This document shows, in pieces, positions 25,238 to 38,627 of a stretch of DNA of 64,000 bases. Source of the DNA: Betaproteobacteria bacterium (GTDB taxonomy: Bacteria > Pseudomonadota > Gammaproteobacteria > Burkholderiales > Casimicrobiaceae); assembly GCA_016861105.1 (NCBI GenBank), contig BOKS01000012.1, forward strand, positions 1 to 64,000, in the 5' to 3' direction. Position 1 is the first letter of the stretch; every line of letters starts with the position of its first letter. The position numbers and the translations under genes are program-made. The notes under the pieces were generated by a model, which made no database searches, was not told the origin of the DNA, and saw only the letters and a program-made list of their open reading frames with translations.

Positions 25238-25251
25238 TTGACGCAGGTCAA
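25238..25251. promoter_or_regulatory. FNR/Dnr-type binding site upstream of norZ
   Basis: TTGAC-GCAG-GTCAA, a perfect FNR/CRP-superfamily inverted repeat of the type used by Dnr/Nnr and FNR regulators. It matches the site at 37058 at 13 of 14 positions. It lies about 45 bp upstream of the probable norZ transcription start. Confidence 0.75.
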
Positions 25252-34978: not shown

Positions 34979-37021
34979 ATGCCGCCCCGCATCCTCGCCG
35001 TCGCCTGCACCACTTTCGCGCTCGCGCTCGCGCCCGCTGTCGCCGCCGCGCAGGAAGGCACTCCGCAGGCGCGCGTGATCGTGCAGTTCCGGGCCGATGC
35101 GAAGCTGCTGGAGAAGGCGGCGCTGCCCGGCGCGAACGGCCGAGCGCGAGCGCGGGCCGAGGCGCTGGGCGCGAGCCGCCGGCTCGCGCTCGTCGCCGGA
35201 AGCGAGATCGCCGCGCGCATGCAGGTGGTCAAGGCGCGCGGCATCGGAAGTGCTGCGCTCGCCCGCGCGCTCGCCGCCGACCCCGCCGTCGAGTTCGCCG
35301 TGCCCGACGAGCGGCGCCGCGCGCAGGCGGCGCCGAACGATCCGCTGTACCCGGCCGGCGTCCCGGGCAACGGTCCCGCGTCCGGCCAGTGGTACCTGCG
35401 CGCGCCGGCCGGCGAGGTGGTGTCGTCGATCGACGCCGAGCCCGCGTGGAGCGTCTCCACGGGCTCGCCGTCCGTGGTGGTGGCCGTGCTCGACACCGGC
35501 GTGCGCTTCGAGCACCCGGACCTGCGCTCGGTGGCGAGCGGCGGCAACCTGCTCGACGGCTGGGATTTCGTCTCCGACCTGGACGTCGCGAACGACGGCG
35601 ACGGGCGCGACCCCGACGCTTCCGATCCCGGCGACTGGGTGACCAAGGACGAGGCGGCGGCGGGCGGCATCTGCGAGGGCGAGGAGGCGTCGAGCTCGTG
35701 GCACGGCAGCATGGTGTCGGGACTGATCGGGGCGCTGACCGACAATCGCCTCGGCATGGCGAGCGTCGGCCGCACCGTGCGCGTCCTGCCCGTCCGCGTG
35801 CTCGGCAAGTGCGGCGGCTACGATTCCGACATCATCGCCGGCATGCGCTGGGCGGCGGGCCTGCACGTGCCCGGCGTGCCGGCGAACGTCGCGCCGGCGC
35901 GCGTGCTCAACCTGAGCCTGGGCGGCGAAGGCTCGTGCCTCGCGTCGTACCGCAACGCCGTGGCCGAGGTGCTCGCGACGGGCACGGTGATCGTCGCCTC
36001 GGCCGGCAACGGCGCCGGCCGCACCGTCGGCGTGCCCGGCGCCTGCGACGGCGTGCTCGCGGTGGGCGCGCTGCGCCACGTCGGCACCAAGGTCGGGTTC
36101 AGCAACCTCGGCGCGCAGGTCGCGATCGCCGCGCCGGGCGGCAACTGCGTGAACGTCGCCGCCGGCACGCCGTGCCTGTACCCGATCCTCACGACGACGA
36201 CCGACGGCGCGACGACGCCCGGCACGCCGACCTACACCGACAGCTTCGACATCTCGGTGGGCACGAGCTTCGCCGCACCGCTCGTCGCGGGCACGGCGGC
36301 GCTCATGCTCTCGGTGCGGCCCTCGCTCTCTCCCGCGCAGGTGCGCTCGTTCATGCAGGGCACGACGCGCCCGTTTCCGGCGACCGGCGGCAGCGACTTG
36401 AGCGTCGCGCGCTGCACGGCCCCGCAGTTCGACGGCGCCGGCAAGCCCGTCGACCAGCTCGAGTGCTACTGCACCGCCGCCACCTGCGGCGCCGGCATGC
36501 TCGACGCCGGACGGGCCGTGCAGGCCGCGCAGGCCGGCGTGCAGATCGCGGACGTCGTCGAGTTCTACAACGCCGCCCTCGACCACTACTTCGTCACCTG
36601 GCTGCCCTCGGAGATCGCCGCGCTCGACGCCGGCACGCAGATCCGCGGCTGGGTGCGCACCGGGCTGGGCTTCCGCGCCTACGCCACGCCGGAAGCGGGC
36701 TCCTCGCCGGTCTGCCGCTACTACATCCCGCCCGCGCTCGGCGACTCGCACTTCTTCGGCCGCGGCCACGCGGAGTGCGAGGCGACCGGCCGCGACCAGC
36801 CGCGCCTCGTGCTCGAGGAGGCGCGGTTCATGCACCTGGCGTTGCCGGCGGGCGGTACGTGCCCGGCCGCGACGGTGCCCGTTTACCGCGTGTTCAGCAA
36901 TCGCGCGGACGCGAACCACCGCTACACCACCGATCGCGCGGTGCGCGACCAGATGGCGGCGCGCGGCTGGCTCGCCGAGGGCGACGGTCCGGACCTCGTC
37001 GTCATGTGCGCGCCGCGCTGA
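34979..37021 (+). CDS. Secreted S8 (subtilisin-like) serine peptidase with DUF5648 tail
   Basis: A 680-residue secreted peptidase. Signal peptide (residues 1-24, cleavage after AAA), inhibitor-like propeptide (about 30-110), S8 catalytic domain with Asp162 (AVLDTGVRFEHPD), His232 (SSSWHGSMVSG), oxyanion Asn334 and Ser420 (VGTSFAAPLVAG). A C-terminal domain of about 130 residues starting VVEFYNAALDHYFVTW is the DUF5648 type, seen on many betaproteobacterial secreted proteins. Several Cys pairs suggest disulfides. It lies 19 bp after the DAO gene but is probably functionally unrelated. Confidence 0.93.
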   Translation: MPPRILAVACTTFALALAPAVAAAQEGTPQARVIVQFRADAKLLEKAALPGANGRARARAEALGASRRLALVAGSEIAARMQVVKARGIGSAALARALAADPAVEFAVPDERRRAQAAPNDPLYPAGVPGNGPASGQWYLRAPAGEVVSSIDAEPAWSVSTGSPSVVVAVLDTGVRFEHPDLRSVASGGNLLDGWDFVSDLDVANDGDGRDPDASDPGDWVTKDEAAAGGICEGEEASSSWHGSMVSGLIGALTDNRLGMASVGRTVRVLPVRVLGKCGGYDSDIIAGMRWAAGLHVPGVPANVAPARVLNLSLGGEGSCLASYRNAVAEVLATGTVIVASAGNGAGRTVGVPGACDGVLAVGALRHVGTKVGFSNLGAQVAIAAPGGNCVNVAAGTPCLYPILTTTTDGATTPGTPTYTDSFDISVGTSFAAPLVAGTAALMLSVRPSLSPAQVRSFMQGTTRPFPATGGSDLSVARCTAPQFDGAGKPVDQLECYCTAATCGAGMLDAGRAVQAAQAGVQIADVVEFYNAALDHYFVTWLPSEIAALDAGTQIRGWVRTGLGFRAYATPEAGSSPVCRYYIPPALGDSHFFGRGHAECEATGRDQPRLVLEEARFMHLALPAGGTCPAATVPVYRVFSNRADANHRYTTDRAVRDQMAARGWLAEGDGPDLVVMCAPR

Positions 37022-37057
37022 CGCCGGGCCCCTCGGAGCAAGCGACCCGGCGCCGCT

Positions 37058-37071
37058 TTGACGCGCGTCAA
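37058..37071. promoter_or_regulatory. FNR/Dnr-type binding site upstream of candidate sRNA
   Basis: TTGAC-GCGC-GTCAA, a perfect inverted repeat that differs from the norZ site in one base. TATCCT (37093-37098) would be a -10 placing the start near 37105, so the site is centred at about -41, the classic class II activator position. No protein-coding gene starts downstream within 500 bp. Confidence 0.7.
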
Positions 37072-37104
37072 CGCGATGCGCACGCCGACCGCTATCCTCG
37101 ACAG

Positions 37105-37216
37105 CGTGGTCTCGCGCATCGCGCGGGCACGCAAGCAGTCCCGGCCGTCGTCATCACCTCCTCCTCCGATGGCTGACGGAAGTCTGGGCCCCGCTCCGCG
37201 CGGGGCTCTTTTTTTC
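37105..37216 (+). ncRNA. Candidate anaerobic small RNA with anti-Shine-Dalgarno loop
   Basis: A predicted transcript of about 112 nt from an FNR-type promoter to an intrinsic terminator. Three stem-loops are visible. SL1 (37111-37127) has a 7-bp stem and AUC loop. SL2 (37147-37177) has a 9-bp stem with one bulged U and a 12-nt loop ACCUCCUCCUCC, complementary to GGAGG Shine-Dalgarno sequences. SL3 is the terminator. Loops of this type are known in rhizobial sRNA families with CCUCC motifs; whether this one is related is unknown. No ORF fits. It sits between the S8 peptidase stop and a convergent LuxR-type gene. Confidence 0.6.
37186..37216 (+). terminator. Intrinsic terminator of the candidate sRNA
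   Basis: GCCCCGC-TCCG-CGCGGGGC (37188-37207) followed by a run of eight T after TC. It is 167 bp beyond the S8 peptidase stop, so it might also end that mRNA. Confidence 0.85.
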
Positions 37217-37538
37217 CGCACCGACGGGCGCACGGGATGCCGCGCGTTCAATAGTAGGGCACGCGCCGCTGCGGGCGCTGGGCGTGGCGCCGGGCAGCCC
37301 GCCAGACCCGAAGGAGCAACGGGGCACGGCGCACGGCAGCACGCGCGGGCGTGCCGTCCGCGCCGACGAGCGCGCGACGAAGGAGGGGAAGCGTGGGCAG
37401 CATCGGGATCTCCGGAAGGCGGTGAACGACGGAGACCATTGGAGCGCGCATCGTGGCCGGGCGGCGAGTGACGGCTGTCCCGGCCGGTCCGCCACCCGGG
37501 ACGGTACGCGACGCGACCGGGACTGCCGTCCCGGCGGA
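37217..37538. other. Gap between sRNA terminator and LuxR-type gene
   Basis: 322 bp without a convincing gene. A 67-codon minus-strand frame (37248-37451) is open but has no ribosome binding site and an unremarkable composition. Short inverted repeats around 37470-37530 (GACGGCTGTCCCGGCCGG and CCGGGACTGCCGTCCCGG) may terminate the convergent gene at 37539. Confidence 0.3.
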
Positions 37539-38627
37539 TCAGCGCGGCAACGGCTTCGCGCCGAAGCCCGCCTCGCGCGCGCGGACGATCGCCTGCGCGC
37601 GCGAGGCGACCTCGAGCTTGGCGAACACCGCGGAGACCTTGTTGCGCACCGTCTTCTCGCTGAGGCCGAGGTGGGCCGCGATCTGGAGGTTGTCGAGGCC
37701 GCGCGCGAGCAGATCGAGAAGTTCCCGCTCGCCACGTGTCAGGCCGCCGAACGCCCCGCCAAGCGGCGAGGATGCGTCGTGCTCGTGCAGGAATGCACCG
37801 ATCTCGGCGAAGCACGCGGCGAACGCCGGCTCGTGCTCGAGGAGGATGTGGTTGCGGCTCTCCAGCGGCACGAAGCGCGCGCCGGGGATGCGTCCGGCCA
37901 GGAAACGCCCCTCCTCGAAGGGCACCCGCGCGTCTCCGCGCGCATGCAGCACGAGCGTCGGGCACGCGACACGCCCGGCGAGATCGCTCACGTCGATGTC
38001 GCCGAATGCTTCGATCGTGCGGGCCGCGTGAGCGGCGCTCGTCGACAGGCGCTGCAGCTCGTTGAACCAGCCCACCTGCTCCGGCGTGCCCTCGGGAATG
38101 AACAGCGAGGTGAACACCTGCCGGAACGCCGGCGTGTCGCGCCCCCAGCCCACCTCGATCAGGTCGACCAGCAGCCGGCCTTCGCGCGCCTGCTCGGGCG
38201 TGGGATCGCGGCGCCTCAGGCCGCGCGCGTACCCGCCGAGGAGCACGAGGCAGGACACGCGCTCCGGATGGCGCGCGGCGTAGGCGATCGACACCGCGGC
38301 GCCCTGCGAGCAGCCGAACAGCGCGAAGCGCGGGAGCTTCGCCGCGTCGACGACCGCGGCGAGGTCGTCGACCCAGGTCTCGAGCGCGGGCACCGCGGCC
38401 GTGCGATCGGACAGCCCGCAGCCCCGGCCGTCGTAGCGGAGCAGCGTCCGCCCGCGCGACAGCTCGGCGAGCCACGGCCGCCACACCGGACTCTGCAGGT
38501 CGAATTCCAGATGCGTGAGGAAGTGCGCCGCGCGCACCAGCGGCGGGCCCGCGCCGATCCGCGCGTACGCGATGCGTGCGCCGTCTTGCGTCGCGCAGAA
38601 GCGGATCGTCTGGCGGAGGTCGCCCAT
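37539..38627 (-). CDS. Alpha/beta-hydrolase fused to LuxR-type HTH
   Basis: A 362-residue fusion. Residues 10-280 are an alpha/beta-hydrolase with nucleophile Ser107 in FGCSQGAA, an Asp in LHARGDARVPF, and His in SRNHILLEHE, so the triad looks intact. Residues about 297-357 are a LuxR/GerE HTH (LTRGERELLDLLARGL, IAAHLGLSEKTVRNKVSAV). The hydrolase may act as an enzymatic or purely ligand-binding sensor for an ester or lactone. Start at the ATG 38627 (GGAGG upstream) is preferred over upstream codons. No acyl-homoserine-lactone synthase is nearby. Confidence 0.88.
   Translation of the reverse strand: MGDLRQTIRFCATQDGARIAYARIGAGPPLVRAAHFLTHLEFDLQSPVWRPWLAELSRGRTLLRYDGRGCGLSDRTAAVPALETWVDDLAAVVDAAKLPRFALFGCSQGAAVSIAYAARHPERVSCLVLLGGYARGLRRRDPTPEQAREGRLLVDLIEVGWGRDTPAFRQVFTSLFIPEGTPEQVGWFNELQRLSTSAAHAARTIEAFGDIDVSDLAGRVACPTLVLHARGDARVPFEEGRFLAGRIPGARFVPLESRNHILLEHEPAFAACFAEIGAFLHEHDASSPLGGAFGGLTRGERELLDLLARGLDNLQIAAHLGLSEKTVRNKVSAVFAKLEVASRAQAIVRAREAGFGAKPLPR

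Follow-up and report, generated by a model that had tools for sequence, protein, structure and literature searches.

Does the DNA between a subtilase gene and a neighbouring hydrolase gene encode a small RNA (sRNA) that responds to oxygen? The window, which is the whole stretch of DNA that we analysed, is 64 kb long. Within it, the subtilase gene (34979-37021, plus strand, with a Peptidase_S8 domain) is the 5' neighbour of the locus, and a gene with an alpha/beta hydrolase domain and a LuxR-type domain (38705-37539, minus strand) is the convergent neighbour on the downstream side. The hydrolase domain and the LuxR-type DNA-binding domain that follows it are in a single polypeptide, and a paralogue that is 55% identical is found elsewhere in the genome (G000:C3:202544). 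We think it likely that the region between these two genes contains a free-standing gene for an FNR-driven sRNA with an anti-Shine-Dalgarno loop. The direct basis for this proposal is the sequence, the predicted fold, the geometry of the promoter, the presence of genes for FNR and Hfq, and sibling families of sRNAs; from these we infer transcription, binding by FNR and by Hfq, processing, and targets. An earlier note had suggested an FNR-activated anti-Shine-Dalgarno sRNA at this locus. What it observed in the sequence holds, with small corrections, and our results partly support its reading.

The putative promoter has an FNR/Dnr-type box, TTGACGCGCGTCAA (37058-37071, plus strand), which is a perfect match to the palindrome (TTGAC-GCGC-GTCAA). 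A -10-like hexamer (TATCCT, 37093-37098, plus strand) starts 21 bases beyond the box. As the earlier note had it, the box is centred about 41 bases ahead of the start that is predicted from this hexamer, near 37105. The locus thus has TTGAYNNNNRTCAA near -41.5 and a -10 downstream, as for FNR class II promoters, and we take the position of the box to be that of a class II activator site. The pattern TTGAYNNNNRTCAA has just 2 matches in the 64-kb window, versus 0.01 expected. A simple scan of 36500-37700 found no sigma70 promoter, and the candidate promoter is without a good -35. The missing -35 is expected at a class II site, but it would also fit the absence of any promoter. Another perfect FNR-type box (25238-25251) is found where a norZ-like gene starts; the product of this gene has a NorB cytochrome-c-like domain and a COX1 domain. 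This box, TTGACGCAGGTCAA, was said to be one base different from the sRNA's box, but two spacer bases differ.

The predicted sRNA is about 112 nt (37105-37216, plus strand; the start is by prediction only). It is predicted to fold into three hairpins, as had been claimed, with a folding energy of -50.4 kcal/mol (z = -2.43; 4 of 200 shuffled sequences folded equally well). The predicted fold has stem-loop 1 at 37106-37132 and stem-loop 2 (SL2) at 37142-37179. SL2 has two near-equal pairings in the predicted ensemble: one has 11 base pairs, a single bulged base, and a loop of 12 nt, and the other has 9 base pairs and a loop of 16 nt. The exposed 12-nt loop of the earlier description stands, but its combination with a 9-bp stem does not. 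The anti-Shine-Dalgarno loop, ACCUCCUCCUCC (37156-37167), is open in both forms (predicted to be 0.99-1.0 unpaired). Across the ensemble, CCUCCUCC has a mean unpaired probability of 0.999, versus a mean of 0.556 for 300 controls in which the flanks were shuffled and the terminator was kept; none of the 300 controls reached 0.999. By itself, CCTCCTCC is not rare in the window (8 matches versus 2.14 expected). The third hairpin is an intrinsic terminator (37186-37215), with the hairpin at 37186-37208 and a run of 7 T at 37209-37215, which is the sole run of six or more T on either strand of the 64 kb. It was correctly described as a strong terminator, but the eight U that had been reported are 7, or 8 if a T ahead of one C is counted.

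Related hairpins are found in other genomes. We searched for CTCCTCCT with T6 lying 28-58 bases further on, and we found this pattern in 47 of the 64 genomes from the family (26 of the 38 good ones). Within the window's genus, it is present in 18 of 22 genomes, including the window's own, and the reversed control matches none of the 22. In the 42 genomes from outside the genus, the pattern is present in 29 and the reversed control in 16, so a single match from these genomes is weak evidence. Two conserved sRNA families, A and B, emerge across the genus and the family, and we read them in full at 39 loci (L319-L357). These loci were chosen by eye from the pattern matches, and of 40 regions, 39 were used (20 from family A and 19 from family B); L358 was left out because it is not a pattern match. 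Other pattern matches were omitted, such as those from genus g2 or those without a hairpin. The loop CTCCTCCT and the T run are invariant by construction, while the stems were free to vary. The 20 aligned members of family A are from 17 of the 22 genomes of the genus and have the stem ATTCC..CCAT[CTCCTCCT]ATGG..GGAAT. The 19 aligned members of family B are from 12 genomes of the genus and 6 others and have the stem CTGTATC..[CTCCTCCT]..GATACAG. At least one double change that keeps the pairing is seen in 12 of the 19 base pairs of family B and in 8 of the 15 of family A.

The two families have their own promoters. A palindromic promoter element, TTGCATTGTGC..GCAATATG, is upstream of 13 of the 20 members of family A (L321 and 12 other loci). 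In 7 of the 19 members of family B (L334, L336, L341, L343, L347, L349, and L353), we found CTTGAA and CCC with sigma32-like spacing; these resemble sigma32 promoters. Up to 160 bases from the loop, we found no strict FNR box in any of the 39 members, and just one of them, L321, has a box with one mismatch, 148 bases before the loop. The locus in the window is without the conserved promoters of either family and has the FNR-type box in their place. The window's own genome has at least one copy of family A (L319, at G000:C10:38712) and two tandem copies of family B (G000:C1:155328 and 155513), and it holds at least four sRNAs with the same hairpin-plus-terminator module if the window sRNA is included. 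The first of the tandem copies (L399) has TTGAAA..CCCCAA upstream.

We compared the window to these families with covariance models R2 (family A) and R3 (family B, built without the window). Across the 64 kb, the best match to R3 is the window's hairpin pair (37141-37212), with 32.5 bits versus 11.6 bits for the next match. In the same 64 kb, R2 matches 37144-37213 with 25.7 bits (E = 4.5e-5), and the next match has 11.4 bits; the genome's own member of family A scores 76.8 bits with R2. When R3 was run against the window's own genome, 150 of the 7473 first-look candidates received a score, and among these the window was third (E = 5.6e-5), below the tandem pair from family B (66.5 and 63.8 bits) and above a match with 23.9 bits (E = 0.011). 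The genome's copy of family A was absent from this list and had 27.0 bits when scored directly. There is one copy of the sRNA at 37105-37216, and neither model has a second match near it. Across 80 subtilase loci (834 kb), R3 had four matches at E up to 1, and the two best (27.7 bits) are from Zoogloea and have a CU-rich hairpin and a terminator. We consider the matches of R2 and R3 to the window to be strong evidence for a shared architecture and weaker evidence for descent, which is not proven because the loop and the terminator carry much of the score. A model of the window sequence alone (R1) matched 42 of the 64 genomes from the family at E up to 1, mostly weakly, and we rejected two of its best matches: L260 is without the anti-Shine-Dalgarno loop and L261 belongs to family B.

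No Rfam family reached its gathering score here. With a loose cut-off, 11 Rfam families match the stretch, and six of these, on the sRNA, are bacterial sRNA families (anti-hemB, 19.9 bits; ar14, 18.6; RF02278, 15.9; ncS54, 15.7; isrJ, 14.6; and SorX, 13.8). None of the six comes close to its gathering score, and the scores of two animal microRNA families are just as high. The gathering score was also reached by none of the 18 loci from families A and B that we scanned; the copy of family A from the window's own genome was nearest to RF02278, with 34.5 of the 50 bits needed.

Is the box likely to be used? The window's own genome (4.49 Mb, 85% complete) has 40 matches to TTGAYNNNNRTCAA, versus 2 for the reversed-pattern control. 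At all 40 sites, we scanned both sides of the box for TANNNT at a distance of 19-25 bases. The hexamer was there in 20 of the 80 direction tests (at 18 of the 40 boxes) versus 1 of 320 shifted tests, so many of these boxes are probably working sites. The sRNA's box is among the positive sites, with a spacing of 21. The genome has seven matches to the HTH_Crp_2 domain, four of them over the cut-off. One match (L369) is in a frame of 323 aa that has ACSNCNLRELC and another cysteine further on, which is the cysteine pattern of FNR. We did not see this pattern in the CRP/FNR-type proteins of L370 and L371, one of which is perhaps Dnr-like. Hfq is also encoded (104.4 bits), and the U-rich 3' end of the sRNA makes it a candidate for binding by Hfq.

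The alternative that fares best is that the window encodes a real anti-Shine-Dalgarno sRNA but that the box is fortuitous or is bound by another CRP-type protein, with no control by oxygen. The use of other promoters by families A and B and the number of HTH_Crp_2 matches would fit with this, but the perfect box with a -10 at the class II distance, and the excess of such boxes in this genome over the reversed control, make it unlikely. It is more doubtful still that the hairpin and T run are the terminator of the subtilase gene, or part of its 3' UTR, with a box and a loop that arose by chance or from the UTR. The subtilase gene is on the same strand, and we found no other terminator after it in 36500-37700. 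However, this terminator starts 165 bases past the stop of the subtilase gene (37021), beyond the box, the -10, and two more hairpins, and the hairpin-loop-terminator unit fits a model from unrelated loci (R3). Finally, it is hardly credible that the motif is the ribosome-binding site of a 20-codon peptide on the minus strand (AGGAGGTG-ATG), even with an ATG right after AGGAGGTG and a frame that is open for 20 codons, as that strand has no promoter or terminator there and folds no better than its own shuffles (z = -0.50 for the opposite strand of 37105-37216), and the AGGAGGTG word does not mark start sites in this genome. Of its 18 other copies, 17 are within long open frames that have coding-type GC and read the word as NAG-GAG-GTG-ATN, and the 18th is within such a frame on the other strand. 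We also asked whether the 10-mer ATCACCTCCT might mimic the tail of the 16S RNA. There are 19 copies of it in the genome, versus 1 of the reversed 10-mer, but the 18 other copies are in coding-type frames, so there is nothing special about the 10-mer by itself.

If the window does encode an FNR-driven sRNA, do its relatives have one? A DNA search with a 186-bp region against 149 genomes, including its own, found its own copy and short partial matches only. The best partial matches from the genus (L002 and L004) were rejected, as they have neither the box nor CCTCCTCC on the strand that was read. A box with CCTCC is found in 38 of the 64 genomes from the family and is absent altogether from 7 of the 21 congeners. 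All 79 of these loci besides the window were read by script. None of the 38 others from the genus (34 from congeners and 4 from the window's own genome) runs into a hairpin with at least four T, where one of the 38 (L181) ends at the edge of its contig. Among the 41 loci from other genera, just one (L132) runs into a hairpin and TTTT, and weakly. A box with CCTCC, a hairpin, and T5 was found at none of the 80 subtilase loci (among 234 loci scanned). Matches to the hydrolase/LuxR gene at E of 1e-30 or better are found in 7 of the 63 other genomes from the family and in 1 of the 21 congeners, and there is no box at the hydrolase/LuxR loci L227-L230 or at the paralogue in the window's own genome (L234). 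The earlier note had staked its reading on conservation in relatives: the loop module is kept in the siblings across the genus, but we did not find the FNR-driven copy in the 21 congeners, several of whose genomes are incomplete.

We also searched 399 genomes from the order, of which 12 are from the family, for a box with CCTCC and T5. There were 19 genomes with this combination, versus 4 for the reversed control. When we read these loci, six were from genus g38, one was the window, and ten look like chance, coding, or leader sequence. All six sampled genomes of g38 (L196-L201) have an FNR box, a CU-rich stretch, and a terminator. The one g38 sRNA that was scanned passes the gathering score of RF02278 (52.8 versus 50), and three that were scored with R3 have 26.0-27.5 bits. 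The g38 sRNA lies between an rplM-like gene and an OsmC-like gene, near the RNase P RNA. We considered whether these sRNAs might be AniS of Neisseria and rejected this: L196 is 47.5% GC and is beside rplM-like and rpsI-like genes. Genome G433 (L204) has a box, a CU-rich stretch, and a terminator, but this unit has no match to R2 or R3 at E up to 10. The unit comes from another family of the order, where it lies between two genes on the reverse strand, near 1501-1656. Genome G171 (L205) has a similar unit (15.1 bits with R3). Coupling to FNR is thus rare, seems to be recent in this lineage, and is seen in at least one other lineage.

We propose that when oxygen is low, FNR or an FNR paralogue would bind the box at about -41.5 and activate transcription as at class II sites. 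The transcript would stop at the strong terminator, and processing might then leave just its last two hairpins. SL2 would hold CCUCCUCCUCC single-stranded, and with Hfq, its loop could pair with GGAGG-type ribosome-binding sites and block the translation of a set of mRNAs. The window sRNA would then be the oxygen-responsive one among the four or more sRNAs in this genome that bear the module. Many mRNAs could be repressed via the loop, as the earlier note proposed. With a crude gene call, at least 4 matching bases precede the start in 17 of the window's 43 genes, and at least 6 in 3 of the 43. The second count weighs against the proposal, and the two together suggest that the targets would be limited in number. 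If the proposal is correct, then oxygen sensing is tied directly to translational control in a betaproteobacterium that has a norZ-type nitric oxide reductase, and AniS would be joined by another sRNA that is driven by FNR, one that has an anti-Shine-Dalgarno loop. A simple rule of design is suggested by the sibling families: the same loop with a different promoter. More speculatively, a single portable module of anti-Shine-Dalgarno hairpin plus terminator might have been placed under differing global promoters (FNR in the window, sigma32-like in part of family B, and palindromic in family A), so that each regulon has its own translation brake, and the FNR form might have arisen independently in at least two lineages of Burkholderiales. 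We hold this idea tentatively.

The class of sRNA to which the window's would belong is already known, and it includes the double-hairpin "toxic" sRNAs, the NmsR siblings, and the cuckoo/ar14 RNAs. Like the Betaproteobacteria toxic sRNAs (RF02278), the window sRNA has a CU-rich unpaired hairpin loop and then a terminator hairpin. It differs in its score (15.9 bits versus a gathering score of 50), its extra third hairpin at the 5' end, and its FNR-type promoter. The members of RF02278 are described as including ncS03, ncS05, ncS27, and ncS62 of Burkholderia cenocepacia, with S17 of Bordetella pertussis being similar in its 5' part (PMC5688073, PMC11722255). The same sources describe a CU-rich unpaired stretch that is complementary to ribosome-binding sites and several copies of these sRNAs per genome, and for ncS27, the pairing step is reported to be supported by overexpression and antisense experiments (PMC5688073). 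As described, NmsRA and NmsRB of Neisseria (NgncR_162/163) share three stem-loops and an anti-Shine-Dalgarno loop in SL2 with the window sRNA (PMC5362039, PMC9973317). In the same descriptions, they repress through that loop, and they are a tandem pair that is strongly expressed in standard growth, whereas the window sRNA is single and has an FNR-type box. For NmsRA and NgncR_162, pairing is reported from mutation of the anti-Shine-Dalgarno sequence or loop, although some targets were independent of the loop, and dnrN rose (PMC5362039, PMC9973317). The ar14/cuckoo RNAs of alphaproteobacteria are described as having anti-Shine-Dalgarno motifs in their loops, as in the window sRNA, and hypervariable stems of their own (PMC7143759), and CcsR, also from alphaproteobacteria, is described as being driven by stress sigma factors (PMC10253847). 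Compared to RF02344 (ar14/cuckoo), the window scores 18.6 bits versus a gathering score of 58.8, and it has one anti-Shine-Dalgarno loop, not three, and an FNR-type promoter.

Control of an sRNA by FNR has precedents as well. FnrS of Escherichia coli is an FNR-activated sRNA of anaerobic repression. AniS of Neisseria meningitidis is described as an FNR-controlled sRNA that is induced without oxygen and is bound by Hfq (PMC4423775, PMC11912907). We take it to belong to another family than the window sRNA. Besides AniS, we recognised no FNR-driven anti-Shine-Dalgarno or double-hairpin sRNA in our literature search, in which most subscription papers were beyond reach. Our best reading is that the window sRNA is probably new as an FNR-driven member of a class that is itself known.
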